A program made the position numbers and the translations under genes. The notes under the pieces are model-generated. The model was not told the DNA's origin and searched no databases. It saw only the letters and a program-made list of their open reading frames with translations. A stretch of 64,000 nt of DNA from Triglochin maritima (Eukaryota; Streptophyta; Magnoliopsida; Alismatales; Juncaginaceae). Location of the stretch: positions 33,982,188-34,046,187 of the forward strand of contig OY821789.1 of NCBI GenBank assembly GCA_963682175.1, read 5' to 3'. Shown here piece after piece: positions 10,506 through 39,587 of this stretch. Each line of letters opens with the position of its first letter. The stretch's first letter is position 1.

Positions 10506-12393
10506 TGTAACGTTTCCGAAAACAACGGAAAATTTAAACAATATAAAAGACCGTCAATGGTCAACACTGGGCACGTCACGGGAAACAAACCAACATATAT
10601 AATATAAATACGATCCACGTGGAAGTCAAACAGACTGACTGTGATTACAAACAAAAGCTACACAACATGTAACCGCCTCAAAAGAAGAGACAGACAACTA
10701 CAAGATCAGATCCCGGTGACACCCTCCTGGTCACCACCTCGACTCTAATGCTGCTCGCTACCTGAAATGCAAACAAACAAACATGCCTGAGTTCCCTACT
10801 GGAACCCCGTATGCCAAACCTCCTAAAATACAAAATGGAATTAAAGACAATGCAATGCAATGCAATGCAATACACATGATCATCCACCTCGGGTCCACAA
10901 TAATACCCATCTCCGCCTCCGCGGTACTGAACCACTCCTGCCGCACAAGGGTCAAGTCAGTCCACTGATGTCACACAAGGGTCAGACGACACCACTGCTC
11001 CTACAAGCACCACCAGAAAGGCCCCCCGGTACTACGCCGCCGCACAAGGAGCGAGTTAGCCCGCCGAATGCACAACTCGGGCCAGACGACAGCCGCTGCT
11101 CCCCCAAGCACTGCCAGACGCGCACCCTGCCGGAACATCCTCGACCTACCGACAAACCCCAGCAAACAGCCCAAGGTTTACGACAATCATCTCTCACACC
11201 CCGTACGATATGAGAGGCTCAACAATAATACGCCCTCGTCGAAGGTGAAATCCGTCGCTCCCAAGGCCGGTAATCGACCGTCGCCTCAGAGCCGGTAGTC
11301 GACCTATACTCGACGGCTCGCGTGTGGATAAATCCACCAACCTGCGGCAGATCGGTCGACCGCTACAATCACACTGGTCGACCAGTCTTCCGCATAGTAC
11401 TCTGTACTGTAAAAACAAGCATTCAGTCGAACCACGCCAACCGAATTACCGACCAATAGGTCGAACAAAAGTCATCTAGCGGTCGACGGTTTGGATGGTC
11501 TACGATATACAATATTTATAATATATATATCCGACCGGTCGAACCAAGGGTCCGTTCAACCGATAACAGGGATTCTCAGCATTTTGCCTAAGTAATATTC
11601 GGTCGACCGGAACTGAGATACAATTCGACCGAAATATCACAGGCACTCTACTGCTTGATTAAAATGCTCAGTCGGTCGACCGAAAGTTAATGAGCGGTCG
11701 ACCGTTTTGATGGTCAAAGCTCCCAACTGATTTAGCATCGAATAGATCGGTCGAACCAGGTTAAGGGTGTTCGACCGTTTAATAAGTCAAAACCCCCAAC
11801 CGACCTATTCTCATTGTTTTGGTCGACCGGCGAAGTGGATCCGTTTGACCGATAACAGCATAAAACCCTTTTTCCCGCAGAAATCTGGCATAACGGTCGA
11901 CCGTCCTCAGACATCGTTCGACCGTTTGCGGGTGCAAAACAATATAATAATAGAATCGGTCGACTGCCCACAGGCACCGGTCGACCGATTGTCGTCTACA
12001 ACCTCTGAATATGTTGCAATCCGACGGGGAATTCGACACCAAAGTCGATCCCCAACACCCACACAGCTTATGTGAGTTATAATGAAGACTTTGCATACCT
12101 TATTGAAGTTCGTGGAAGCCTCCCAAGCTTTGGCAAGCCCAACCCAACTTCTTCTCCTTCTCCTCCTCTTCTTCTCCTTCTCTCCTTCTTCTTCTCCTCC
12201 AAGATCGCCTCTCTCACTCTCTAATCAACCCATGCAAAGAGAAAATGTTTTATTAGACCTAACACCTCTATTCATAGCCAAAACCCAAATCTTATCCAAT
12301 ACCTCCACCTCATCAGTTACTGTTCACGGCTTAATTAAGGGTTAATTAGGTTTAATTTAGGTTAATTAGGGTGTTTAGATTATAGTTATTACA
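10506..12393 (-). mobile_element. Solo LTR, Tekay/Del-like family (diverged relative of the intact element at 30.8 kb)
   Basis: Begins TGTAACGTTTCCG and ends TTACA, the same termini as the LTRs at 30783 and 37494 (TGTAACGTCCCG ... TTACA). The flanking 5-bp duplication is perfect: ATATT at 10501-10505 and at 12394-12398. Inside are the same blocks in the same order: the C-C-T-G-A-G-T-T-C-C-C...ACCCCGTATGCC stretch near 10790-10815, a Pro-codon-like GC-rich part, the palindrome array, then a pyrimidine-rich end. No internal coding region remains, so LTR-LTR recombination removed it. The open frame at 12082-12345 (Leu/Ser/Pro rich) lies inside the LTR and is not a gene. Orientation is inferred from the intact copy. 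Confidence 0.88.
11424..11987. repeat. Paired GGTCGACC palindrome array in the solo LTR
   Basis: Degenerate copies of CGGTCGACCG. Pair starts read by eye: 11458/11480, 11536/11553, 11600/11622, 11673/11695, 11748/11768, 11820/11842, 11894/11915, 11957/11978; spacings 22, 17, 22, 22, 20, 22, 21, 21. Typical variants are CGGTCGAACC and CGTTCGACCG, so one half-site is often decayed while the TCGA core persists. Confidence 0.85.
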
Positions 12394-15363: not shown

Positions 15364-17439
15364 GGAGTGGTAGAGAATTTTCAGTTCAGTTTAAAGAGGT
15401 TGGACAAGTTTTGGTTGTGGATGAAATGGATTTTGAGGGTGTTAGGACCTCCATTACTGCTACCATGAAGTGGGGTCCAGATGACCCATTGGCATTCAAG
15501 TACAAAATCTTAGGCAAGCCAAGTTTGAGTTCAAGTCTAGGTTGTCATGAGGATGTAGCTGAGGCTCTTAGGTATGAGAATCCAACTAAGGAGTTGGAAA
15601 TTTATGTCTCAGTTGGTGGTAGTACGCAACCTAGTCATCCTAGTACTTCTAATTCCACCCCAGTCCCATTAAGCACTATCTTTCCAAAAGAGCCAAACCC
15701 TATTTCCCCTAAAAGATCTCCCTGGCTTGATCCAAACCCCACCAAAAATTGCTAATGAAGCCACCACCACAACTTAATCACCTACCAACCAAGCTTCAAT
15801 TGGATGTCTTGTTACCTGATCCCAAACAAGAAATTCTTTATCTCCCCCACCTACTATGCCCTCTATAAGCAGAAAGTACCCCACTAAGAGAAAAAAATGA
15901 CTCCTTAGAGAAAATCAATACTTGAAATTCCAGAGGTAGAGGAAGAAGATGATAATGAGAATGACATGCATTATACTTTGGTTCAGATGAGGAGGATTAT
16001 GTGCCTAAGGATGACCCAAATGGTAGTAAGTAAAATGGAAGATGAACCTGACTCAGGGGTTAAGGAGGACTTGGGGACAATTCTCAAGGGAGATGGGCCC
16101 ACATGTAAAGGTTAACCACCTACAACTAGAATTCAGTGTAGGGAAGAGGTTTCCTAGTAGAGAGGTACTCAAATTTACACTTGACAACACTCCATCCTAA
16201 ATGATAGTTATGTAAAGTTTTACAAAAGTAACCCTAAAAGTGTGATTGCAAAGTTCACAAATAGTAAGTGTAGATGGAGATGTCATGCCTTTAGGATAGG
16301 TGATGGTTTGGTCTTCCAAATTAAGACCTTGTTTGAATAGCATAGTTGTTCTAATGTGAATTTGGTGGCTTCCATGATGGAATCTGAGGACTGAATTTGT
16401 GATCATACCATGAAGTGGTTGCAAAGTGGATGAGAGCCTAAAAGTAAAACACATTAGAAACAAGATAACCCAAGACTACCACATCTCAATTCCATACCAC
16501 AGAATCTAGAGAGGTAGGGAATTAACTTTGAAGAAGATACATGGCAGTGATGATGCTCATTATGAGTTGTTGCCAACTTTGATGTGTGAGCTGCAAAGAA
16601 AGAACCCAGGGTCTGTGATAAAGTTGGATGTTGACAGAGACAACAAGTTTGAGAGGTTGTTTATCTGCTTTCAAGCTTGAAAAGATGGATTTCTGAATGG
16701 GTGTAGGCTAGAAATAGGACTAAATGGATGTCACATGAAGATCAAGTTCAGGGGTGCATGTCTTTAAACTGTTAGTGCATATGGGAATAATGGAATTTTC
16801 CCTGTTGCATTTGCACTGGTCCCTGTTGAGAGTGACCATTCACTAGAGATGGTTCCTTAGTTTTCTAAAATTGGCAATTGGTGAAGCGGAATGGCTAGTA
16901 CTGATCAGTGACAAATGTAAGGGCTTAGGGTCAGTAGTTGCTGAGCATTACCCATATGCAAAACACATACTTTGTATGAGACAACATACTTTGTATGAGA
17001 CACTCAGACACTTATACAAGAATTTTAGGTCACATTTTGGAGATCACGTGATGGATGTGGTTTGGGGTGCATCCATAGCCTACACTGAAGATGAGCATAC
17101 CAAATTGATGTGAGAACTGCAACTTATCAATGTATAAGCCTATGAGTGGTTGAAAAATGTAGAGTGTAAATACAAGTGTTGGTCTAGCTAGATCTCAGTT
17201 TGGGGTGATTACAAAATGCAACAATGTCTTAAACAACATCTCTGAAAGTTTTAACTACTTGGTTAGTGATCCAAGGCACAAGTTGTTGGATTTCGTGCCC
17301 CATGTATGTATTTTTTTTTGAATTTTATACATGCATTTAGGATTGATTATCATATTTTCAAATATTTTATGTACATTATTCTATATATTATTTTAATACA
17401 ATGTGATCTACATTAATATCAAAATAAATAGAAGATGGT

Positions 17440-18413
17440 CATACCCAAAGGTTCTCTAAAACCTTTATGAAGATCTGGAGTTGTGTTGCATGTTGAATCG
17501 TCCGCCGATTCGCCTCCAAGTGTTCACCAAACTCTAAACAATATTAGAGAGAAATGAGCTAGCCAATCAATCTCTAAATCAATGTTAGAATCTAGTTAAT
17601 AACCCTTTTAAAGCTCCCTGAGAATTTAATCTCCAAAATCTTAATTAACTAAGAGATTTTCGGATGTATTAGTGGGAAGTTTGGCAGAGAGATAATGTTT
17701 ACATTAATTAAAACAAAGAGGGAGATGAGACCTATTTATAGAATCTCCCAACACCCACATCATTGGCTATCTGCCTATCTACTAACCCATGATTTCTTGC
17801 TTTCTTTCCCTAAAACCATCACTAATTGACACATAATCACCATCATCCCCATTTAACCATAATTAGAATAAATCCAACCCATGATCAACACCAATCTCTT
17901 AATTAATTCTGGCACGTGCTCACCGGTTGAGCAAAACTTGTCTACCAGTAGACTGATTGGCAGTTAATTGCGGTTTCGGTTAGACTATGAAATCAGGCGG
18001 TCAACCCATCATACATTATCAAAGCTACTATGATTTTTCGGTCGAACATATGCCCAAACGGTAGATCGTTTCTACACTAGAAAGCCACTGGTAGAGCCAC
18101 TAGAAGTTTTTGGTCTAGGTCAGGCGGTCCAGACGCTAGTGGTGCCTCGGACTGCACTTCACGTCGACCGATTATTACCAAGAGAAGTTCCCATAAATTA
18201 TCGACCGAACCACGACTTTCACTCGGTCGACCAATCACTACCAAGAAGAGTTTGCGGAAGCTCTTGGAAGTTTTCGGTCGATCAAACACATCCATCCGGT
18301 AACCAAACACATACTCAACAGCTACTGTAAATTTCCGGTTGACCGGTCTCCGAAAACGTTCGACCGTTTTGGCCCGATTTTTGCATTTACCAAATTTGGA
18401 TTAACATCCAACA
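17440..18413 (-). mobile_element. Probable Copia-like LTR remnant, minus orientation
   Basis: On the - strand a TGTTGGATG start lies at 18413. It is followed by a GGTCGACC-type palindrome array (18366 down to 18040), then a CTATAAATAG TATA box near 17735, then purine/pyrimidine-biased sequence. This is the same layout (TGTTGG start, array, TATA) as the solo LTR at 19644, but the sequence outside the motif differs. I found no target duplication and the distal end (17310-17440) is uncertain. Confidence 0.45.
18040..18366. repeat. Degenerate GGTCGACC palindrome array in the minus-oriented LTR remnant
   Basis: Site pairs near 18040/18060, 18198/18224, 18275/18298 and 18336/18357; spacings 20, 26, 23, 21. 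It is more decayed than the other arrays. Confidence 0.6.
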
Positions 18414-18639
18414 AAATTGGATCTTTGAGGTTTTTAACAAATTCATATAATATATTATCATATGTAATGTCAGAACATTATACCTCATAATACATACATT
18501 TCACATGAATTTATTTATGATTCTAACTATGTCATTTTCATGACATATTGATTTTATTGATTCACCACATGTATACTATTTCACATGAAACTTGATACAT
18601 CATATGAACACAAAATCAAAATTCTTGTTTCCCAGTTTT
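18414..18639. other. Short AT-rich stretch between LTR remnants
   Basis: No gene. A TGTAATGTCAGAACATTA start at 18463 weakly resembles the TGTAACGTCCCG LTR terminus and may be the true left edge of the next remnant. Confidence 0.35.
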
Positions 18640-18993
18640 GTGGTGTGACCAGTCGAAGGTATACATCGCCCATAAGGCCGGCTAATCAGCTCATCCGGAT
18701 CGAAGCCTGTCAGGTCATCTCGCTCCGTAGAGTTGTGCAACATCGTGCATTGGGATCGATGATCCCTCAGGTCTACTACTCTAATATGAGTCAAGCAAAG
18801 CATATACTACGCCACAGTCTATAATACAGAGGTGACACGTCTCGAGTGTCCACACTGTTCCACACGGCGGTCCCTAGGTAAGCACGAGCAACGCACCCAC
18901 TGTCACCCCCGGCTCACGCTCTAGGTGAGGACACGAGTTTCCGTGGACAGAGTTGACACTCCACAATGATAAATACTCCATCCTGGGCCCAAA

Positions 18994-19540
18994 CGGTTGA
19001 CCGAAAAAGACAGACCGGTCGACCGCTCCTCAAAGGGTCGGTCAAACAGATGCTTGTAACGGTTGAACTCTGGGCTCACGATTTAAGCCCCAATAGTCGA
19101 ACATGTGGTATAAATCGGTCGACCGCTAAACTGTCAAAATCAGACTACGTCTAAGTCAAAATCAAGGCAACGGTCCAACGGCTCAAGTGCCCTGCTCGAC
19201 CGAAAATATCAAGGTCTTTCCTACCTTCATCAAGTCATAATCGGTCGAACCAAACAATCAAACAGTCAACCTTACAATAAGTGAACTTAAACTACCGATC
19301 AGACAAAAGTCACAAGCGGTTGACCGTTTGGTGGTCAACACTCAGTACAACCCGTAATCACAAGGCAATGGTCGAACGGCTCAAGGGGCACGTTCGACTG
19401 AAAACAACAGACTTCTCCAACCCAACAAAATATGCACAACCGGTTGACCGTCGCAAGACATCGTTCGACCGGTACTGGGTAAAGAATGAGAAATACTCTG
19501 CATCCGGTTGACTGTCCAAAGACATTGGTCGACCGTTAAC
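18994..19540. repeat. Paired palindrome array in the old Tekay-like LTR fragment
   Basis: CGGTTGACCG at 18994 and CGGTCGACCG at 19016 are 22 bp apart. Further pairs follow to about 19540, many reduced to GGTCGAAC or GGTTGACC. Confidence 0.75.
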
Positions 19541-20019
19541 AGGCATCTACCTGGCCGTGCCAAGTATAACTTGATTCCCTCGTCATTGGCGAGGTCTCCG
19601 ACCTCCAGAGACGAGCCAAACTCACGCACACACAAGTGCGAGCTGTTGGCTTTTTGGCCTTAATCTATGTTCTGATGATTTAATTAACCTAATCTTAATT
19701 ATAATCATGTAGAGTAGCACACATATTGCATTGCATATATATTTCTTTGTGCTAACCTCTACAGGTGATCAAGACTCAAGGAAGAAAGGAAATCAAGTCA
19801 AGACATGTAATCAAGCTCATTTGAAGACATGTATTTTGTATTTCTTTGAGTTTTAGGAACTTTTGTATTTTGAGCATACTTGAGCTAAAATCAACTTAAA
19901 CACACACTAGGTTCCTTATAGAAGTCACACACGAAATTTCACATAATTTGGACTTCAATAGATCACCCAAACTTAGACCGGAAAACACTAAACCTGAACC
20001 CTAACTGTCTGCCCACATT

Positions 20020-20512
20020 CGGTCGACCGCAACATGCCGTTCGGTCGACCGGATGATCAAGTAATCCAGTTTGTGTTTCCCTGTCCAGTTTCGGTCGACC
20101 GCATCATCTCATTCGGTCGACCGTTTGAACTTATTTTCCCGACCGTTACTTTTGTCGTATATACCCAACGGTCGTATTCGTATTAAACCAAAAATACCCC
20201 AAATACATTTCTTGTATCAGTCGACCGAGGACCATGATCGGTCGACCGTTTGTCCATCTCTTGACAAACCCAAAGTGCTTGTTGAAAATCGGTCGACCGC
20301 GAGACCTTGTTTCGGTCGACCGAATCGATCTTTGTTTGTCAACCCCAAAGAGCCTGGACGAAATCGGTCGACCGAACCCTTTCTCGTGTTCGACCGATGA
20401 CTTAAGTGTACCTAAGTCGTAGCATTGGTCGGTTGACCGTTACCTAACCGGTCGACCGAACTTAGTTCAAAACTGCCAAACGGTCGACCGTTCAGCCCGA
20501 ATCGGTCGACCG
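20020..20512. repeat. Seven spaced pairs of CGGTCGACCG upstream of an LTR TATA box
   Basis: Pair starts: 20020/20042, 20092/20114, 20218/20239, 20290/20313, 20365/20387, 20430/20449, 20481/20503. Spacings are 22, 22, 21, 23, 22, 19, 22. Ten or more sites are exact palindromes. Distances between successive pairs range from 51 to 126 bp, and the sequence between sites is not repeated. Confidence 0.95.
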
Positions 20513-20598
20513 AATTCATCCAGAATTGGGTCCTGCAAGTTCTGTTTTGTGTTTCACACATCAACTCACACCCAATCAATCGCAACGTCTCTAATGCC

Positions 20599-20606
20599 TA
20601 TATAAG
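20599..20606 (+). promoter_or_regulatory. TATA box of the Copia-like solo LTR
   Basis: TATATAAG with a GC-poor context, 87 bp downstream of the last palindrome, in the position expected for the U3 promoter. Confidence 0.6.
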
Positions 20607-21490
20607 GAGTTGTAAAACACATTTTAACACAACTGTCCCACTACAAACTTGTCCCAAACTTTAGAGAGAATCCAAAACACTCCAAACCTCAATTTCCACA
20701 CTTTAGTGATCAATTCCTTAATCCTACTCAAGTGTGCTCAAGTTTAGAGAGTGTTGTTCCACTCAACCTTTGTTCAAGAAGAAAGGACTTCGATGAAAGC
20801 CCAAAGTGTTCCTCTCGGATTGTGAGAGAAGAAAGTCAAGCTCGCGAGGTTGTTCGCGGAGTTTGTTTTGTAATAGGCGTTCTCTCCCGGCCCTGAACGG
20901 GGAGTGGTTAGTGAAAACGTAGGCGGAGCTCGCGGAGCTTACAAGAGAGGACTAAGACCCAGGTGGGGTGCCGAACCTCTATAAAAACCGACGCGTCTTT
21001 GTGGTTTGCATTTTCTATTCCCTACTTGCTTGTTTAGTTGTTTAAATTCCGCTGCATATAACTCGATCGATAAACAAGTAGGTGATTAGCTTAAAAAGTG
21101 ATTAGTGGACCCATAACCCACGCGATCCTACACGAGCAACATCTAATAAAAGAACTTGGCATACCTTTTCGTGATTCAAGTGCGTTGTCCAACCACGAGT
21201 CGAGCATGCTCCCCCGACGCGACATGCAAAACTTCTACCACCGCACCTCCTTGTGCCTCCGATCGCTCCTCCTCCGATCGTCGACCGTCGAGAGAGTGAG
21301 GGAGAGAAATAGTTGGTGAGGGAGAGAAGATTTGAGTGAGTAAAAGGGAAGAAGAATGGGAGCATCCTCTTCTTATATCAACACCCAAGCGCACCCATCC
21401 ATACTCCTGTCACATCACCTTACCTCCATCCCATACCCAGTCATCCCTCCACCCATCCCATCCAGTCAAACCATCATTAGCCTCTAATCT

Positions 21491-21918
21491 CCCCACCTAA
21501 CAAGATTTGGTCCTTAATTAGAGTTAGGATATAACAGCCAGACTATCAAGACCACACCTTTAAGTCAAGTTTATTCCACTAGCTTAGTAAGTTCACCCTT
21601 TGGAGAGAAACCACAAATTAAGAACATATATAAAACCCAACAAGAAGCCAACAAACAAAGACAATTTGTTGTCTCACTTTTCCAACAACACGTGACATCA
21701 GACGTGGTTTATTGGGTCCAAGATGGGGCCACGTTGAATTGAATTATTACCGACCAATGACGATAAGGTTAGCTTGCTGGAAGTTGCGTAGCCCAAAGAA
21801 TATTGATTAATTCCATTATGTGGTAGCTAATAGTCAACGAGTCAACCAACAAAGTCCTATAAACATAACATCACAGAAGTCGATCTAGCATGCACAATAG
21901 GCTAGGTTAGTTGATCTA
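21491..21918 (+). promoter_or_regulatory. ZIP gene promoter region (G-box and TATA box)
   Basis: A CACGTG G-box lies at 21689-21694 and a CTATAAAC TATA box at 21857-21864, about 55 bp before the ATG. I looked for the zinc-deficiency element RTGTCGACAY known from Arabidopsis ZIP promoters and did not find a clear copy here. Confidence 0.5.
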
Positions 21919-23109
21919 ATGACTTCCTCTTGTCATCTGTGCATGATAATTTTGGCGTTTGTTTTACCAATCTACAGTTTGGCAGAGGAAGAGTGTAAGC
22001 AAGAGAGCATAGAAGGAGAGTGTCACAACAAGCATAAGGCGCTGACGCTTAAGCTCATCGCAATCGCTGCAATTCTAGTAACGAGCTTGATAGGGGTATG
22101 TCTCCCTTTATTCTCGAGAGCGGTTCCGGCCCTCCGACCGGAGAAGAAGCTGTTTGTTGTGGTGAAAGCTTTTGCGTCGGGAGTGATTCTTGCCACTGGA
22201 TTCATGCACGTTCTACCCGACTCGTTCGACGATCTTAGCTCCCCTTGCTTGCCTGAGGTCCCTTGGAGAACTTTTCCCTTCTCTGGGTTCCTTGCAATGC
22301 TTTCGGCTATCTTCACTCTTATGGTCGACTCTTTCATGATGACATTTCACAATAAGAGGAAGAAGCTCACAAGCCGGAATTCGGTCGTAAACGATAACGG
22401 CGCCACTCCAACTCATCATGGACATCAACACTCTTTAATTACTATCGATTCTGCCGGTAGTGATGATGTCTTGACGCGCAATCGGACTATTGCTCAGGTA
22501 AGAAACTAGCTTTGTTCTTCTTAATTATGTTATTATTCGTCTTTAATTCGGTAATTCCATCCTTGTCTAATTAATAGCTACTATTATTGGTATGTGTAAA
22601 CCATGTACATTGTCGGTTCTACGCTATATAGCTAGGTTGGTAGCATAATGTAAAAGACATATATATACTCTCATCATATGTTATTTTGAATCAATATTAT
22701 TCATTTTGGTTATGATGATTCTTTCCAATTTGATAAGATAATAATCACAAACGTTTAACTTAACATTTCACTGCACTGTGACAATGTTAAAGCAATACAT
22801 ACATATACTTGGATTGACGACTAATACACATGCAGTTGTGTAAATGCACAACCAAAATGAGATATTTTATCATAATCCCACAATGTTGGAATTATATATT
22901 AATCGTCCTTGACTTAATTTTTCTTAATCACAATTTAAGATGAACTTTGAAATAGGTCCTAGAAATGGGAATCATAGTTCACTCGGTGGTCATTGGGTTG
23001 TCGATGGGCGCCTCGCAAAATGTTTGCACGATAAGGCCTCTGGTCGCCGCACTTTGCTTCCATCAGATGTTTGAGGGGATGGGACTTGGTGGTTGCATCC
23101 TTCAGGTAT

Positions 23110-26100: not shown

Positions 26101-29100
26101 GTTAATATTATGAAACACTACAATATGCAAAATATTTTTGCTAACATTTGTAAGATTTATGGTCAAACATAGCATTTTAATGTTTCTTATATTCTTCTAA
26201 TATTAATATCTTTTTTTATGGTGACATGTTTATTTTACAGGATTGTATATATTACTGCTCCACTTCACAATTGTATATATTACTGCTTCACGTATATATT
26301 ACAGACTACATGTTATATTACTGTTTTTAAATCAGTGTTGATTTTTTTTATTACTACAAAATCAAACAATACTACTTCCATATTTGATATTTCTTTACAA
26401 TTGATTCAATTTTCATTCATAATTTTATAGGTTTCACTAAAAGGCGTTACAAAATATTTGGGATATTCCAAAATTTCTTTGGAGGAAAAAGCATGTATTG
26501 ATCAATTCCTAAGTGATCCCAGAGACATGTAAGTCTTTATGTGATACATATTGAAATCATTCTAGTTCAACATTATTTACTTTTCTACACATGTTTTACA
26601 TATTTCGTTATTGATTTTACATTGCAGGAGTGCAAGGAATTATAGAACAAGTAAAAACACGTTTTGCATAGGAACACATTTGCTTGATTTGTTGGATGGA
26701 AAAATGGTTTTTGGTGATGTAAGTGAAATTAAATGTTTACAAATGTATCAATTTCAATCATTGTTAAATGTTCCACCTTTTAGGTATTAGAAGTGTCATT
26801 TGAGCTGCTGGAACTTAAAGCTAAAGCTGCAGATCGTGTTGGTGGCATCTTTTTGTAACCTAGATGTTTAAAAACCGCCAAACTATGTTGGCATGGAAGT
26901 CCTTGAAATTCCATAAAGTGACAGTCACAAACAGGCACATGATCAATGTCTTTGAACCTTACATGCATTGTTCCATTGTCTTCATCTATTTTGCTCACAT
27001 TGTATGTAACTGAATTGTCATCCTAATCTTCAATTGTAACGTTGCACATAAAACTCTTCTTCAACTCTTCTTGAAAGATGTGAAAGACACTTCTTGTGTA
27101 TATTTCTTCCATTTCAGCCTCAAGGTTCCATTTAGTCAGTAGCTCCTCCTTCTTATTATTGTCATTATAATTCCATCTATTTTCATTCTCTCTTTGATGC
27201 TTTAGAGCCACCTCAAATCTACAATAAAAAACAATGCTTAACTTATAACATCATATTGCAGATATTTTCAAGCGTATTATATTGAATGGAAAAACTGGGT
27301 GAACTACAGTTGTTTGTTTATGTAACAATAGTTATTGTTATACAACATTCTGTAATATTACCGTTATAAATATTATGTTACAGCTTAACCAATATATTGG
27401 CAATCCAGATTGTAAGCGTAATGTAAACAATAAAACTCTTGTGGCAGTAAATGCATATCTGTTTTTATTTCACATTACATAAATTTATATAACATAACTT
27501 AATGTTAAATTTACAACGACGATGCTACAATTTAACCACCGAATATACAAGCTAATATAATAACAAAGTAGAAATGTACCTGCATATGAACTCAAATAAA
27601 GTGTTTTATCGCGTGATGTATGTCTTCAAAAATGCATTCATTGATTCACTTCTTTGAGTAGTCTTCATACCAGCAAAGAAAATATTTTGCATGTAAGCCG
27701 GTACCCATTTTTCCCGTATCTCAAACAACGAATTCAACCATTTTGAATCATGAAGCTCATTTTCGATAATGATTCTGCTCCATTTACATTCAAAATCTTT
27801 GATGTTCTCGGTGTACCACACACAATCGTGAAAGGCTTGAATAACATGCCCTTTGTTGCTCACTCCTCCAATTTTTTTTTGTAATTTATCCATTATGTGC
27901 CATGAGCAGAAACGATGAACGGTCTTGGGATACACTTGTGCCAATGAAGAATTCATAGCTGGGTCTTGATCAGTAACAATAGCAGCTGGTTCTCTACCCA
28001 TACAATTCTTGAATTCCAAAAACAACCAATTAAAGGATGATATAGTTTCATCATTTAGCAAACCCATTCCGAAAAAGATTGTTTGTCTGTGATGATTCAC
28101 ACCACAAAAGGCTATGAATATCATTGAGTACCTGTTTGTACAATACGTAGTATCGAACGTGACAGCTTCTCCAAAATGTTTAAAATTATCTTGACAAGTG
28201 CTATCACCACAAAACAAGTGACTCAACTTACTTTGTTCATTCTTTTGATATGAATAGTAGAAGTTTTGGTCACCTTTCTTTGTACTCTCTAAGTGTTCTA
28301 GTACTAATTCTGCATCATATCCTTCTGTTTCATATCTGCTGGAAGCATTCATATTTAGTATGTCTCTATACGTGAATCTGATTTTGTCATAACCACCGCT
28401 TTCATTTCCTAACAACACAGCTTGTTTTACAACAGGTATGTTGGCTTCACTCATAGATTTCAACAAACTCTGAGTAACAGGCGGTATGTTACGATTATTT
28501 CTCATGTAATGTCTTTGAGACGAGCTTGTCATTTCATGATTATGTCCTTCAACAAAGTTTAGCACAAACCACTTATTTTTTTCTCGATCAAATTTGATTT
28601 TTAATTTTGCCTGACATTCACATCTTGACATCCCAACTTTCCTCTTCTTTATTGTTACTGACACTTCATTCATACTTGTTTTTTTGTTGCTTCTTGTACA
28701 TGATGACCCTTCTTTAGAGCAAACAAACTTTTTTTAAGATCATCTCTCTACAATTATTTTATGATGCTTGAGCATATTTGGTTGACGATTTTCGCACATT
28801 AAACCCTACAGCATTTGCATAATTCTTATAATAGTGGTAAGCTTCTTCTATCGAGTCGAACTCCTGTCCATTGGTTGGTTTGAGCTCACTGTTAACGTCA
28901 GGTATAAGGAAAAATTCTTTGTCATGCTCCTCATTCTGCCACTTTAAATTATACTAAATGGTGCAAAATGAGGTCCAGAATGTTACAGCTTTCATAATAA
29001 TATAATAATATTAGATTGTCAATTCAACGTTACTTCACTATAATACTAGTACAAAGAAGATAAAAAAAGGCTAAAGTAAAATGGTCACTATAACAGGTAT

Positions 29101-30782: not shown

Positions 30783-32878
30783 TGTAACGTCCCGAAACAG
30801 CGGAAGATTTAAAATTTCGAAATAACGAATAAAACTGACAACTCAAGGCGGGAACGTCACTAATATATAAATATATAAATCCGGGTGCACCCAAAATACA
30901 TGGAGTTTACAAAAGGTGTACAACTACAATCCAGATGAAAGAAATGAAAATACAAGTAGTCGTACAATCTCGCAAATGCCGAAGAGGATCCGACTCCAAA
31001 GCGCTCCGTCCTCGGTCACCACCCACCCGGACCTACTGTGGTCCTGAAATAAAAAGTGCAACAACAATGCCTGAGTTTCCTGAAAGGAAACCCCGTATAC
31101 CAAGCCCTAAATGCATGCAAGACTATCAATGAAACCTATCATACTAGTCATCATGGCATGGCATCAATGCGATACATAAAACAATCCCCCAACGGGTAAA
31201 CAGACCCACTACGGGGTAACCAATCCCACCACGGGGAAACACAGGACCTCTGTCCGCAACTGTAAGGGGTCCCACTCTGAGACCTACCGTAGGCACATAC
31301 GGTCTAGCAGAAGGTACGCAACGAACCCCACACGCGACTACTCTAGTCAAGGGATCGGTGAGGAGCGTCCGCACGCCTGCGCGAAGTAGAAATCAGCTGA
31401 AATCTCGAGGTCAACACCTCACCAACGGGGCCGTCGCCCAGGTCGGTCCACTCATCTGGAGGAGCCCGTCCAGACTACCCTGCCGGAAAAGATCGTCGAC
31501 AGTCCATACCCTCACCGGAACAGCATCGGTGGGACACCATCGCCCGGAAACGTCGTCGGACGGCACTTCCGCCGGAACAGCATCGGCAGAAATCACCCGG
31601 AACAGCATCGGGTGGAACAATCATCGCCTCGTCTACACGAGCGATCCGAGCTCAAACAGCCCGCAGGGTCAACATGCTCCAACGAGCCGTGCACCTCGTG
31701 CACCGGGATCCTCAATCCCTCAGGCCTGCTACTCTACTGTGAGTCAGAACATCAAGGCTACGTCGCCCTCCATCTGTGGAGACGACACGTCCCAGATGCC
31801 CACACTCTTCCACACGGCGGTCCCTGGGCAGACACGCAGAACGCACCCACCGTCACCTCCCGGCTCACGCGCTAAGCGAGGACACGGGTTTCCGTGGACA
31901 GAGTTGACATCTCACTAGGACAAGAAAACCAGTACTGTGCCCCATCGGTCGACCGAATCAGGCAAACCGGTCGACCGAAACCAACAGTAACGGTCGAACG
32001 GATTTCCTCCAAATGGTCGAACAAAGTGCCCAAAACTCTGTCTCCAATCGGTCGAACCAGCGGGAAGAACCGGTCGACCGGACAGGTCAAAATCCTAGGT
32101 CTGACTAAGTCAAAATCAATTCAACTATCGGTCGACCGACTCAAGGGTCCCGGTCGACCGAACATTACAGGGTCAGCCTAGTAATTCTAAGTCATATAAT
32201 CGGTCGAACGCATATACTAATCGGTCGAACCAACAAGCAGTAAACAACAACAACTTAAGTTCCGGTCGAACCACAAGGCTCGGTCGACCGGAAACAGGCA
32301 ACATTAAACCCGAACCCACGAAATTTGGCATAACCGGTCGACCGCCCCAAGGCATCGTCCGACCGGTTCTGGGCAAAAACATCAATTTACACTATCACCG
32401 GTCGACCGCCCGAAGGCACCGGTCGACCGTTGGTCGACAGCAACCTTGCACCAGCCAAGGATTTTACGCCGTTTTCTTGTCGCCGGCGAGGTCTCCGACC
32501 TCCCGCGACCGACCCAAACCTCCCCCAACAGGGAGAACCACAAAACACACTAATGCTTGGCATACCTCAAAAGAAAGACGAATCCGCCGGAGCAACGCTC
32601 ACGCCCGTCGCCTCCACCCGCGCAACCTCCTCACGCCGGAGCCTCCGCGCCGCCTCCTTCCTCCACTGGTCGCCGGAAAAGCAAGGAGAAGAGGTGGTGA
32701 GTTTTGGTGGAAGAAAATGGGAAAGAAAGGAAAAAGAGAGGGTTGGGTTGGGTTTAAATAATAAAACCTACACCTACCCCCCCCCCCCCCATACTCCCAA
32801 CCATACCCACCATACCTCACCTCACTCCACCCCACTCCTCTCCCCACTCCCCCCCCCCCCACGTCTCCAGTCTTTACA
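30783..32878 (-). repeat. LTR (3' LTR of the minus-strand element)
   Basis: It ends next to the polypurine tract, so it is the 3' LTR in element orientation. It contains the palindrome array 31946-32429 and, on the - strand, an ATTATTTAAAC TATA-like motif near 32762. Confidence 0.95.
31946..32429. repeat. Eight spaced palindrome pairs in the Tekay LTR
   Basis: Pair starts: 31946/31968, 31991/32014, 32049/32071, 32129/32151, 32201/32222, 32263/32281, 32335/32356, 32399/32420; spacings 22, 23, 22, 22, 21, 18, 21, 21. About half are exact CGGTCGACCG; others are CGGTCGAACC, CGGTCGAACG or similar. Confidence 0.95.
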
Positions 32879-32893
32879 ATCCACCCTCCTTAA
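32879..32893 (-). promoter_or_regulatory. Polypurine tract
   Basis: The - strand reads AAGGAGGGTGGAT immediately before the TGTAA start of the 3' LTR; it primes plus-strand DNA synthesis. Confidence 0.8.
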
Positions 32894-32911
32894 AAGGATT
32901 TCGTCCCGAAA

Positions 32912-35900
32912 TCACAGCAACAACTCACCGAAAAGCTCTGGGTACTGCCTTCTGACTTCCTCCTCAATCTCCCAAGTGGCCTCGCACTCACTATGATGCT
33001 GCCACCGGACCTTCACCATCGGAATGGTCCTCCTCCTGAGCTGATGATCCATGCGATCAACAATCTCGACCGGCCTCTCCTCGAGCGACAAGTCCTGCTG
33101 AATCTCTGGAACTGCAATCTCAATGACATGCGACGGATCTGCCACATACTTCCTCAGCATCGACACATGGAAGACATTATGCAGACCCGAAAACTGTGGC
33201 GGCAAAGCAATCCGGTAGGCGACCTCACCAACCCGGTCCAAGATCTCGAAAGGTCCAACATATCTCGGACTAAGCTTCCCCTTCTTCCCGAACCTCATGA
33301 CTCCTCGGGCAGGAGAGATCTTCAGAAACACATGGTCGCCCACCTCGAAACTCAACGCCCGCCTGCGTCGATCTACATAACTCTTCTGCCTGCTCTGTGC
33401 TGTGGCCAGTCTCCTCCTAATCACATCCACCTTCTCTGCATACATCTGCACGATCTCTGGCCCCACTAACTGCCTCTCGCCCACATCACTCCAGCATACC
33501 GGAGATCTGCAAGGCCTCCCGTACAATGCCTCGTACGGTGCCATCCCAATACTCGAGTGGTAGCTGTTGTTGTAGGCGAACTCTATCAGCGGCAAGTGCT
33601 CATCCCAGTGCCCTGCCCAGTCCAGTGTGCATGCTCTCAGCATATCCTCCAAGGTCTGAATCGTCCTCTCTGACTGACCATCGGTCTGCGGATGGAACGC
33701 TGTACTGAATCTCAGACGCGTCCCCAAAGCCTGCTGCAGACTCCCCCAAAATCTGGAAGTGAATCGTGGATCTCGATCGGAGATGATGCTCACTGGCACC
33801 CCATGCAACCTGACTATCTCCTCCACGTACAACCGAGCCAGACCCTCCAAAGGCAACGTGGTCCTGATCGCTAAGAAATGCGCCGACTTGGTCAGTCGAT
33901 CGACTATCACCCAAATCGCGTCGTGGAATCTCCTCGTCTTCGGCAATCCTGTGACAAAATCCATCGTCACGTGCTCCCACTTCCACTCGGGAAGCTCGAT
34001 ACACTGCATCGGTCCTGCTGGTCGCTGATGCTCAATCTTCACCTGCTGGCAGACCAAGCATCTGCTCACAAACTCCGCTATGTCTCGCTTCATCCCCTTC
34101 CACCAGAAATTACGCTGCAGGTCCTTATACATCTTCGTGCTCCCCGGGTGAATGGAATATCGTGCTCGGTGTGCCTCCTCCATGATCTCCTCTCTCAGCT
34201 CATCCACCCTCGGCACCCAAATACGGCTTCTGAACCTCAGACCACCATCTGCTCCAATGCTGAAATCAGATCCCTCCTGAGCAGACAACTGCACCAGACC
34301 AGCCAACTCTGCATCGGTACCCTGAGCCTGCACAACTCTCGAGACAGTCTGCGGCTCAACTCTCAAACCAGCAATCACTGCCCCCTCTGCTGACCCAGCA
34401 AACGGCCTCCACTCTGACAGGGACTCAAGCAATCTCCACTCCTGAACGCAGAGGCTCGCTACCGACACCTCAACTCTCCTGCTCAGTGCATCAGCAACTG
34501 AATTGGCCTTCCCCGGATGATAGGATATGGTGAAGTCGTAGTCCTTAATGAACTCGAGCCACCTCCTCTGCCTCATATTCAGCTCCTTCTGCGAAAATAG
34601 GTACTTCAAGCTCTGGTGATCGGTGAAAACCTCGAACTGCTCCCCGTACAGATAATGCCGCCAAGTCTTCAGTGCATGAACTACCGCCGCCAACTCCAAG
34701 TCATGAGTGGGGTAGTTCCTCTCATGATCCTTCAACTGTCTCGAAGCGTACGCCACGACCTTCCCGTGCTGCATAAGTACGCAACCCAAACCGATCCCTG
34801 ATGCATCACTGTAAATCACAAACCCTCCGCTGCCGCTCGGAAGTGTCAGGATCAGTGCTGTCGTCAGCCGTCGCTTCAACTCAAGAAAACTGTCCTCGCA
34901 CTTCTGGGACCAAGCAAACCTAACTCCCTTCCGCGTCAAAGCCGTGAGCGGAGAAGCAAGTCGGGAGAAATCCTGAATGAATCGCCTGTAGTAGCCTGCT
35001 AACCCCAGAAAACTCCTGATCTCAGTCACGCTCGTCGGAGCCTTCCACTGCGTCACTGCCTCCACCTTCGCTGGGTCCACTGAGATCCCGTCCTTCGACA
35101 CGATGTGTCCCAAGAACGCCACCTGATCCAACCAAAACTCGCACTTCTTGTACTTGGCATACAACTGCTGATCCCTCAAGATGCCAAGCACAATCCTCAA
35201 GTGCTCTCGGTGCTGCTCCCAGTCCGGCGAGTACACCAAGATGTCGTCGACGAACACAATCACAAAACTGTCAAGGTACGGCTTGAACGTTCTGTTCATC
35301 AGGTCCATGAATGCTGCAGGTGCATTCGTCAGTCCAAATGGCATCACCAAGAACTCATAGTGGCCGTACCGCGTCCTGAAGGCTGTCTTCTGAACATCTG
35401 CCTCCCTGATCCTCAGCTGATGATACCCCGATCTCAAATCAATCTTCGAGAAGACCTTCGCCGTCTGTAACTGATCAAACAGGTCCTCGATCCTGGGTAA
35501 GGGATACCGGTTCCTAACGGTAACCTTATTCAGCATCCTGTAGTCGATGCACATCCGCAACGACCCATCCTTCTTCTTCACGAACAAGACTGGCGCTCCC
35601 CACGGCGAGACGCTAGGTCGGATGAACCCAGTATCCATCAACTCCTGCAACTGCTTCTTCAGCTCAGCCAACTCTGCAAGTGTCATCCTATACGGAGCCT
35701 TCGACTGCGGAGTCGCACCCTCCACCAAGTCGATGCCGAACTCGATCTCTCGGTGTGGCGGTAGCCCCGGGATATCCACTGGAAACACATCTGCGAAATC
35801 CCGTACCACCTCTATGTCCTCCAGACTCCTCGACTCAGAATCTGACACTACCAGTGTAGCCACATAAGCTCTGCATCCCAGCTGGATCAATCTCTGTGCC

Positions 35901-37258
35901 TTCACTGCCGAGACCATAATCCGACCTCTGCCTCTCAGCCCTCTGATCACAACATCAGGCAGGTCCTCCCTCGGAATCAGAATCTTCTTCTCGCGGCAAA
36001 AGACCCGAACATCGTACTGGGACAGCCAATCCATCCCAAGTATGACGTCGAAGTCCTCCATCGGTAGCAAGACCAGATCTGCCGGAAAATCTTGGTCTCC
36101 CGAAACAACTGTGGTGCCGGGGAGGAAGCTCCCCACAGTGCCCACCTCACCCATGGGCGTACTGACTTCCAAACACACAGTCAGCAGCTCAGGGGTCCGA
36201 CCCAACTCGCCAGCAAACTTCTCCGAAATGAAGGAGTGAGTGGCACCGCAATCAAAAAGAACTCTAGCAACACGACCAGAAACAGAAAGAGTACCTTCCA
36301 CCACAGTGTTGGAGTCCCTCGCCTCCTCAGCCTGGATGGTGAAAACCCGCCCGACGACTCTGCTCGGTCCTGGTGGTGCAACTACGCGACTGCCTCCGCT
36401 CCTGCCTGCTGCTGGCGGTCCTGGCCTCCTACTCGGCTCTCCCCGCCTCTGCGGACAATCTCGAATGAAGTGCCCCATCTGGCCGCAACCCAGACATGCT
36501 CCAGTACGACGGGGACACTCCTGCCCCGGATGAGCTCCACCACAAGAACTGCACATCCCGGGCCGACGTGCTCCTCCCCCATCAGACCGAGGCCTCTTGC
36601 CGGCCACCACTGCGGAACGGCCAGCTGCACGCCCCACTGCACTACCCTGAGGTCTCCTAGCCTCCTGGTAGTTCTCCTGGAAGTCCCGATCAAGAACCGT
36701 CGCGCACTCCACTGCATCTGCCAGAGTCCGCGGCATACTGGTGAGAACACGAGACCTCAACTGCTTCCTCAGTCCCCTCACAAACTTCCTCGCTCTCTGC
36801 TCCTGAGTAACATAAATCTCTGGACAGTAGCGCTCCAGGGCGTTGTACCGATCGACGTAGGCAGCTAACGTCATATCCCTCTGCTCCAACGCCAGGAACT
36901 CCTCTCTCTTCGCATCTCTGACATGCGGCGGGAAGTATTTCTGATTAAACTCCTCCAGAAACTCCTCCCAAGTCACATCATCTCGGTCGGCGAACACAAC
37001 TGCAGATGTACTCCTCCACCAGCTCGACGCCTGACCTCTCAGCACGTAGGTAGCCAGACCTACCTGCAGCTCCGGTGCACATCCAATCGCACGGAAGATC
37101 TTCTGAATCGTGAAGATCCAGTCCTCAGCCAGCTCAGGATCCACTCCGCCCTCAAAAGTCGGAGGATGCTGCCTCATGAACCTGTCGTGCACCACACCAG
37201 GTCCTGCCTGCTCAGCTCGGGCAGCCTGGCGCTCCAGAAACTCGCCCAGCCTGTCCAT
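32912..37258 (-). CDS. Gag-pol polyprotein of the Tekay/Del retrotransposon
   Basis: Open frame of 1448 codons from the ATG at 37258 ([11 protein letters not shown]); the frame is open upstream to 37375 but without another ATG. Domains in order: retrotransposon gag (about 21-200), two zinc knuckles ([13 protein letters not shown] near 236 and [14 protein letters not shown] near 256), aspartic protease with FDCGATHSF near 336, reverse transcriptase about 520-700 ([11 protein letters not shown], catalytic FVDDILVYS near 669), RNase H about 812-930 ([25 protein letters not shown]), integrase with zinc-binding C-x2-C near 1068, a D-D-35-E triad at D1100, D1161 and E1197, and a chromodomain-like C-terminus ([21 protein letters not shown], about 1413-1433). 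No frameshift or stop. The protease loop has Cys where D-S/T-G is usual. Confidence 0.95.
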
Positions 37259-37478
37259 AGTGCCATAGAGCGTACGCCGCTCCTCCTCCCATGCCGCGCC
37301 TCCCGTACCCTCACTGGAACTACGCGGCAGGGGCGTACCTCTCACACGCCTCGGAGGAAACTGCCACCACAACAATCAACAGATAAGCAACAATGCATGC
37401 ATGAGCTACAGAAAGTAATGCATGCCTCTAACACTACTCCTAAGGGTGGTTCTTTAGACGAAGACACAGGAATCGACC

Positions 37479-37490
37479 GCTCTGATACCA
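37479..37490 (-). promoter_or_regulatory. Primer binding site (initiator tRNA-Met type)
   Basis: The - strand reads TGGTATCAGAGC three bases inside the 5' LTR, the standard plant iMet primer site of Tekay/Del elements. Confidence 0.92.
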
Positions 37491-37493
37491 AGT

Positions 37494-39587
37494 TGTAACG
37501 TCCCGAAACAGCGGAAGATTTAAAATTTCGAAATAACGAATAAAACTGACAACTCAAGGCGGGAACGTCACTAATATATAAATATATAAATCCGGGTGCA
37601 CCCAAAATACATGGAGTTTACAAAAGGTGTACAACTACAATCCAGATGAAAGAAATGAAAATACAAGTAGTCGTACAATCTCGCAAATGCCGAAGAGGAT
37701 CCGACTCCAAAGCGCTCCGTCCTCGGTCACCACCCACCCGGACCTACTGTGGTCCTGAAATAAAAAGTGCAACAACAATGCCTGAGTTTCCTGAAAGGAA
37801 ACCCCGTATACCAAGCCCTAAATGCATGCAAGACTATCAATGAAACCTATCATACTAGTCATCATGGCATGGCATCAATGCGATACATAAAACAATCCCC
37901 CAACGGGTAAACAGACCCACTACGGGGTAACCAATCCCACCACGGGGAAACACAGGACCTCTGTCCGCAACTGTAAGGGGTCCCACTCTGAGACCTACCG
38001 TAGGCACATACGGTCTAGCAGAAGGTACGCAACGAACCCCACACGCGACTACTCTAGTCAAGGGATCGGTGAGGAGCGTCTGCACGCCTGCGCGAAGTAG
38101 AAATCAGCTGAAATCTCGAGGTCAACACCTCACCAACGGGGCCGTCGCCCAGGTCGGTCCACTCATCTGGAGGAGCCCGTCCAGACTACCCTGCCGGAAA
38201 AGATCGTCGACAGTCCATACCCTCACCGGAACAGCATCGGTGGGACACCATCGCCCGGAAACGTCGTCGGACGGCACTTCCGCCGGAACAGCATCGGCAG
38301 AACAATCATCACCCGGAACAGCATCGGGTGGAACAATCATCGCCTCGTCTACACGAGCGATCCGAGCTCAAACAGCCCGCAGGGTCAACATGCTCCAACG
38401 AGCCGTGCACCTCGTGCACCGGGATCCTCAATCCCTCAGGCCTGCTACTCTACTGTGAGTCAGAACATCAAGGCTACGTCGCCCTCCATCTGTGGAGACG
38501 ACACGTCCCAGATGCCCACACTCTTCCACACGGCGGTCCCTGGGCAGACACGCAGAACGCACCCACCGTCACCTCCCGGCTCACGCGCTAAGCGAGGACA
38601 CGGGTTTCCGTGGACAGAGTTGACATCTCACTAGGACAAGAAAACCAGTACTGTGCCCCATCGGTCGACCGAATCAGGCAAACCGGTCGACCGAAACCAA
38701 CAGTAACGGTCGAACGGATTTCCTCCAAACGGTCGAACAAAGTGCCCAAAACTCTGTCTCCAATCGGTCGAACCAGCGGGAAGAACCGGTCGACCGGACA
38801 GGTCAAAATCCTAGGTCTGACTAAGTCAAAATCAATTCAACTATCGGTCGACCGACTCAAGGGTCCCGGTCGACCGAACATTACAGGGTCAGCCTAGTAA
38901 TTCTAAGTCATATAATCGGTCGAACGCATATACTAATCGGTCGAACCAACAAGCAGTAAACAACAACAACTTAAGTTCCGGTCGAACCACAAGGCTCGGT
39001 CGACCGGAAACAGGCAACATCAAACCCGAACCCACGAAATTTGGCATAACCGGTCGACCGCCCCAAGGCATCGTCCGACCGGTTCTGGGCAAAAACATCA
39101 ATTTACACTATCACCGGTCGACCGCCCGAAGGCACCGGTCGACCGTTGGTCGACAGCAACCTTGCACCAGCCAAGGATTTTACGCCGTTTTCTTGTCGCC
39201 GGCGAGGTCTCCGACCTCCCGCGACCGACCCAAACCTCCCCCAACAGGGAGAACCACAAAACACACTAATGCTTGGCATACCTCAAAAGAAAGACGAATC
39301 CGCCGGAGCAACGCTCACGCCCGTCGCCTCCACCCGCGCGACCTCCTCACGCCGGAGCCTCCGCGCCGCCTCCTTCCTCCACTGGTCGCCGGAAAAGCAA
39401 GGAGAAGAGGTGGTGAGTTTTGGTGGAAGAAAATGGGAAAGAAAGGAAAAAGAGAGGGTTGGGTTGGGTTTAAATAATCAAACCTACACCTACCCCCCCC
39501 CCCATACTCCCAACCATACCCACCGTACCTCACCTCACTCCACCCCACTCCTCTCCCCACTCCCCCCCCACGTCTCCAGTCCTTACA
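37494..39587 (-). repeat. LTR (5' LTR of the minus-strand element)
   Basis: Adjacent to the primer binding site. Nearly identical to the other LTR: differences include an extra CAATCAT-type repeat unit near 38301-38310 and shorter poly-C tracts near 39496 and 39564. Confidence 0.95.
38662..39145. repeat. Eight spaced palindrome pairs in the second Tekay LTR
   Basis: Same array as 31946-32429, offset by 6716 bp. One site differs (AAACGGTCGAACA here, AAATGGTCGAACA in the other LTR). Confidence 0.95.

Follow-up and report, generated by a model that had tools for sequence, protein, structure and literature searches.

Paired palindromic boxes common to a Sirevirus-type LTR and neighbouring Ty3/gypsy LTRs of Triglochin maritima: a candidate docking array for a host DNA-binding protein

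The window analysed here, a stretch of 64,000 nucleotides of the Triglochin maritima genome, carries LTR retrotransposon sequences of two superfamilies, which have one short palindrome in common (Table 1). The first of them is a solo LTR of Sirevirus type, an assignment that is based on LTR features only because the element is present as a solo LTR without its internal part. It sits inserted in a broken gypsy LTR, which itself bears an array of the same box. The full-length gypsy element farther along the window shows the domain order reverse transcriptase, RNase H, integrase together with a match to the Ty3 capsid (Pfam). We considered a Sirevirus as the carrier of its two arrays and rejected this, since gag-pol has the gypsy domain order and the Ty3 capsid and is not of the Ty1/copia kind. 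No chromodomain was found in the element by Pfam at a threshold of 0.001. Its primer site, TTGGTATCAGAGC, is presumably of the initiator-Met-tRNA type, and Tekay/Del is the lineage name that we assume for it. The element is young; its LTRs differ by 7 substitutions over about 2,095 bp and by 3 indels, the flanking rows being left out. Among viral contigs, no relatives of its reverse-transcriptase piece were found, and the pair pattern described below matched 9 stretches there, with one pair in each.

Table 1. Mobile-element features and box arrays in the window (positions of the whole stretch).
Feature	Position	Strand	Details
LTR-like stretch carrying array B1, unclassified	17250-18640 (approximate ends)	-	
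Array B1	18039-18366	.	7 decayed boxes; CTATAAATAGG near 17740 lies ~300 bp downstream; weakest array
Solo LTR, gypsy, related to the LTRs of D and E	10506-12393	-	ends TGTAACG...TTACA as in D/E; target-site repeat ATATT
Array A	11353-11987		in solo LTR 10506-12393; 16 boxes at <=2 mismatches
Broken gypsy LTR	about 18713-19643	-	~71% identical to D/E over 18713-19250 and 19419-19621
Array B2	18994-19535		in broken gypsy LTR; 13 boxes at <=2 mismatches
Solo LTR, Sirevirus type (Ty1/copia), by LTR features	19644-21132	+	1489 bp; ends TGTTGG...CCTACA; target-site repeat CGAGC on both sides
Array C	20020-20512	.	14 CGGTCGACCG boxes in 7 pairs; inside solo LTR 19644-21132
Array C, pair starts	20020/20042, 20092/20114, 20218/20239, 20290/20313, 20365/20387, 20430/20449, 20481/20503		
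TATA box CTATATAA	20598-20605	+	85 bp past the last array C box
Full-length Ty3/gypsy element	30783-39587	-	target-site repeat ATATC
Gag-pol frame of the gypsy element	32912-37375	-	open, 1487 aa
Array D	31946-32429	.	in the gypsy element's 3' LTR (30783-32878); most pairs spaced by 21-22 bp
Array E	38662-39145	.	in the 5' LTR (37494-39587), LTR twin of D; ~330 bp downstream of TATTTAA at 39476

Within array C, a motif count gave 13 sites of CGGTCGACCG with at most one mismatch, 11 of them exact, while the fourteenth copy, TGTTCGACCG at 20387, has two mismatches. A first-pass annotation of this DNA had described fourteen copies in seven pairs, spaced by 22, 22, 21, 23, 22, 19 and 22 bp and located upstream of the TATA box of a solo LTR; our recount was identical, and the LTR with its flanking CGAGC repeats and the TATA box past the array bear out the location. 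The first boxes of successive pairs lie 72, 126, 72, 75, 65 and 51 bp apart. When 14 sites were placed at random over the span of array C, seven disjoint pairs at 19-23 bp arose in 0 of 20,000 placements (mean 1.4). Tandem Repeats Finder returned one row of two copies in array C and nothing longer, by which a satellite or an ordinary tandem repeat was rejected, in agreement with the annotation. The array has a GC content of 0.50 and a CpG observed/expected ratio of 1.74, compared with 0.19 and 0.83 in the parts of the LTR before and after it. Over the whole window, 55 matches to CGGTCGACCG at no more than one mismatch, 37 of them exact, stand against 0.30 expected from 100 dinucleotide shuffles. 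Nor is the motif restricted to array C, 42 of these 55 matches lying elsewhere in the window.

Boxes of this kind have been described before. According to the accessible text of Bousios et al. 2010 (PMC2829016), Sirevirus LTRs contain palindromic RM boxes that are clustered upstream of the TATA box and form CpG islands, the cluster beginning 200-400 bp into the LTR and running for 300-500 bp, with the TATA box just downstream. At least 8 copies are reported per element, 12 of the 13 listed boxes have a CGG-CCG core, and Table 3 of that paper gives CGGTCGACCG itself for a Vitis Sirevirus, with 10 copies in the 3' LTR. Array C is alike in its exact 10-mer, in its copy number (14 palindromes in its LTR alone), in its start and extent (LTR positions 377-869), in its CpG richness as judged by the ratio of 1.74, and in the presence of a cTATA-type box about mid-LTR and shortly past the island (CTATATAA at LTR position 955 of 1489). 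GGACCCATAACCCACG is found near the end of the solo LTR; the published C-rich integrase signal is placed ~21 bp from the LTR end. Since array C thus shows the testable LTR features of RM-box Sireviruses, the statement in the annotation that it was without published description fails: the box class, its place upstream of the TATA box and the exact 10-mer are all contained in the 2010 paper. We take array C to be the set of cis-regulatory boxes belonging to a Sirevirus-type LTR, and as such of a known kind.

Two features of the boxes of the window go beyond the accessible description of RM boxes: they are also present in Ty3/gypsy LTRs and are paired at ~21 bp. In PMC2829016, the motif is termed Sirevirus-specific relative to the classic Ty1/copia elements that were compared, and the text sections of that paper state no pairing, spacing rule or phase of the boxes. 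We found no description of the CGGTCGACCG box in Ty3/gypsy LTRs, or of its pair spacing, in the accessible portions of the open-licence literature, a scope that includes PMC2829016, PMC10760457, PMC5311732, PMC5735166, PMC10398659 and PMC6911290. The more surprising part of this locus is that the Ty3/gypsy LTRs nearby bear such arrays too, on which the annotation is silent.

Besides array C, the window holds four further arrays of the CGGTCGACCG-type box, the LTR twin E not being counted. Pooled counts comprise boxes with at most two mismatches and pairs 17-23 bp apart, with E left out as the twin of D, and the gypsy group for the final counts consists of arrays A, B2 and D, to the exclusion of B1. 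The observed excess of pairs at 19-23 bp was reached in 0 (C), 2 (A), 8 (B2), 4 (D) and 1030 (B1) of 20,000 random placements. The mean pair spacing is 21.1 bp over 28 pairs, and 21.2 bp over 26 pairs when B1 is omitted, which is close to two helical turns at 10.5 bp. The proposal that the boxes share one face of the helix therefore stands within pairs, but is weak across longer gaps. Indeed, phasing of the longer gaps gave, for the five arrays pooled, P 0.006 when the period was fixed at 10.5 bp and 0.03 when it was scanned; the corresponding values are 0.02 and 0.15 without B1, 0.19 and 0.41 for the gypsy arrays A, B2 and D, and 0.02 and 0.12 for array C alone. Helical phasing of whole arrays, beyond the pairs, is thus weak.

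We compared the spacers of array C, with the boxes masked, to those of arrays A, B and D on both strands, and in 6 of 6 comparisons they scored no better than shuffles. Hence, the Copia-type and gypsy arrays are without detectable common descent, and we rejected a recent exchange by which array C would derive from the gypsy ones. Among the gypsy arrays, spacer scores exceeded all 200 shuffles for B and D (60 against a maximum of 32) and for A and D (38 against 29); by this comparison, array A is distantly related to array D, and A, B2 and D, being mutually related, do not represent three independent cases. The box and the spacing that the Copia-type and gypsy arrays have in common are, to judge from the spacers, apparently convergent, although an old exchange followed by total loss of spacer similarity may be the source of the shared box. 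Between gypsy LTRs, boxes are 84-93% identical, compared with 44-61% for other 10-mers (six ordered comparisons), in alignments that are partly anchored by the boxes and are thereby biased toward higher box conservation. For this analysis, boxes at no more than one mismatch were called in one gypsy LTR alone, and 52 of 56 box comparisons had a usable partner in the alignment. The comparison from D to B was the least clear, with 10.8% of the control 10-mers reaching the box mean.

These data bear on the idea of neutral growth, according to which slippage, unequal exchange or gene conversion would have turned one pair into many, and exchange between nested elements would explain the two carrier types. 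The nesting of the Copia-type LTR in an array-bearing gypsy LTR favours such an exchange, and in array B2 a pair plus its spacer is, by eye, repeated at 19171 and 19369. Furthermore, the flanks of the seven pairs of array C are slightly more alike than shuffles when left-anchored (P 0.006; right-anchored 0.09), with 15 of 24 positions alike in one couple of pairs, and array D behaves similarly (left P 0.004, right P 0.03). This residual similarity is weak, yet it suggests that some pairs may stem from local duplication, and it qualifies the earlier claim that the intervening sequence is unique. Neutral growth is, however, unlikely in our view, given that the gypsy LTRs agree in their boxes and have diverged elsewhere, that the spacers of array C are unlike those of the gypsy arrays, and that the accessible text of PMC2829016 reports the same box in Vitis.

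The gypsy pairs also have an internal anatomy, with strict outer half-boxes and a loose position 8 in the inner ones. When the boxes of the pairs in A, B2 and D are read from the outer to the inner end, position 8 is other than C in 15 of 38 boxes (14 A, 1 G), and its outer mirror position is other than G in 1 of 38; Fisher's test gives 0.0001 for this contrast overall, and 0.016, 0.033 and 0.33 for A, B2 and D separately, the boxes being non-independent, as they include duplicates and come from related LTRs. Inner and outer mismatches number 28 and 10 in these three arrays, with the same non-independence, and the asymmetry is absent from array C, where 2 inner and 2 outer changes were counted. 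The variation at position 8 of the gypsy boxes is mostly one tolerated base, C to A, and not a CpG transition or decay. We read the gypsy pairs as two oriented boxes that face each other, as would suit a symmetric protein complex.

A different explanation for paired palindromes would be that neighbouring boxes pair in LTR transcripts as 10-bp stems with a loop of ~12 nt, and that dicing of these stems to small RNAs targets the element for silencing. The predicted RNA folding of the arrays is indeed much stronger than that of dinucleotide shuffles, with z scores of -11.8 for array C and -6.5 for array D, and the loose inner halves of the gypsy boxes are compatible with stems that fray near the loop. 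Array C folds at -203.2 kcal/mol, compared with -189.2 kcal/mol when its spacers are shuffled and its boxes kept fixed (SD 6.2, 60 shuffles), and this difference of 14 kcal/mol implies that the spacers of array C add to the fold. Those of array D add nothing, at -209.5 against -208.4 kcal/mol (SD 6.8). Boxes placed at random fold nearly as well, however, with -185.7 against -189.2 kcal/mol for C and -203.7 against -208.4 kcal/mol for D; random placement thus costs 3.5-4.7 of about 190-208 kcal/mol, which is less than one SD, so that folding does not explain the spacing. Changes in the arms over the 28 pairs point in the same direction, 38 being one-sided and 5 two-sided, of which only 3 are complementary. 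Of the 280 columns, 40 are not Watson-Crick; 24 of these break a stem when the plus strand is considered, and 34 for the minus strand, the sense strand of the gypsy elements. A maintained hairpin was accordingly rejected as the cause of the pair spacing, on account of the rare complementary changes and of a fold that is insensitive to box placement.

As to small RNAs, the accessible parts of Martin 2023 and Bousios 2017 report that clusters of palindromes are hotspots for them in maize Sireviruses. Palindrome arrays lie in the LTR regulatory region in both cases, though the maize palindrome differs from CGGTCGACCG, and for maize Ty3 elements Martin 2023, as far as accessible, reports that miRNA-like structure has no obvious peak along their length. 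Being a small-RNA target would, moreover, not by itself select for boxes. Altogether, we think it improbable that the arrays exist as RNA hairpins that mark the elements, and small-RNA targeting may, by analogy with maize, be a consequence of the arrays.

The arrays of the two superfamilies take different places relative to the first TATA-like box. The gypsy arrays occupy LTR positions 443-926 (E) and 407-1041 (A) and are preceded by a first TATA-like box, TATTTAA at position 112 in E and a weak TGAATAG at 120 in A. By these motifs, the gypsy array lies downstream, and array C upstream, of the respective first TATA-like box. Further TATA-like strings, and hence possible alternative starts, are found at 865, 874 and 1793 in A and at 2000 and 2008 in E. 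If an array can act from either side of the start, it would have the character of an enhancer.

Along with the arrays, the window has five copies of the motif AGGTATGC, which resembles a 5' splice site, all of them on the minus strand and none on the plus strand. Four of its minus-strand positions, 39283, 32567, 12100 and 21166, fall in the LTRs of E, D, A and B, where it precedes the array in the sense of transcription, and its place is kept across three diverged gypsy LTR types. Past the array in E, TTTTTATTTCAG near 37755 could be an acceptor. With AGGTATGC before and TTTTTATTTCAG after the array, the gypsy box array may be located inside a leader intron of the LTR.

We propose that the arrays are docking arrays for one host sequence-specific DNA-binding protein, a reading to which we assign a probability of roughly 0.6. 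Two boxes ~21 bp apart on one helix face would be bound jointly by a dimer or tetramer, many such pairs would raise local occupancy, and the LTR promoter would in this way be switched on or kept open. The binding protein would most likely be host-encoded; as the unrelated Ty3/gypsy elements carry the same paired box, it is probably a shared host factor and not the own protein of one element. The weaker phasing over longer gaps leaves the odds of this docking model unchanged because these are founded on pairing, convergence and box conservation. The operator-like, protein-bound array put forward in the first-pass annotation is thereby retained as the best explanation, given that pairing recurs in LTRs without detectable spacer homology and that boxes are kept while spacers have diverged; protein binding, host origin and an activating or anti-silencing effect are what we infer from these patterns. 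The W-box (WRKY) and other named factors were considered as candidate readers of the box and then dropped.

Alternatively, the boxes could be the targets of a transposon-encoded anti-silencing protein, like VANC of the Arabidopsis VANDAL elements, that is used in trans by other elements. VANDAL is a DNA transposon, unlike the LTR retrotransposons found here. Boxes rich in CpG would be natural targets of methylation, which would fit such a role. The accessible parts of Hosaka 2017 (PMC5735166) report that VANC proteins bind short motifs that are dense in the non-coding parts of their own elements, and that VANC6 acts also on an unrelated motif-bearing element; together with PMC10398659, as far as accessible, they illustrate how anti-silencing proteins can be recruited by arrays of motifs. 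Common to both systems are non-coding mobile-element sequences dense in short motifs, and growth by local duplication. The VANC21 motifs, in contrast, are non-palindromic, occur in a single orientation and often as tandem repeats and show no palindromic pairs, according to the same accessible parts of PMC5735166, and the VANC factor is encoded by the element itself. In the gypsy element of the window, no second sense-strand gene beyond gag-pol was found among stop-to-stop frames of at least 150 aa, shorter or spliced genes being possible. We regard an element-encoded factor as the least probable of the explanations considered.

Returning to a host protein as the reader of the boxes, we tentatively suggest, in a more far-reaching version that we hold with some doubt, that two unrelated LTR superfamilies converged on one paired operator, and that a host dimer of dimers would be the common key to silencing escape or promoter firing, on either side of the TATA box. 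What is added to PMC2829016, as far as accessible, is the same paired box in Ty3/gypsy LTRs, which suggests that both element types use one host protein. A box common to two unrelated element types would show unrelated parasites exploiting the same host switch. The paired box, with its fixed spacing and its pattern of tolerated bases, is a well-defined bait for finding the binding protein.

The window contains several other features in the vicinity of these elements. About 770 bp downstream of the Sirevirus-type solo LTR lies part of a ZIP zinc transporter gene (21901-22509). A minus-strand open reading frame at 27606-28733 has MULE transposase and FAR1 DNA-binding domains by Pfam, and it is possibly a Mutator-like element or a piece of a FAR1-type gene. 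A large open frame on the minus strand, at 49273-52824, corresponds to a conserved plant gene whose product is described as uncharacterised or as an armadillo-fold protein; among the matches listed, those that are named come from flowering plants, with Cocos nucifera ranking first at 48%. Finally, a run of 27 G at 54265-54291 is possibly a sequencing artefact.
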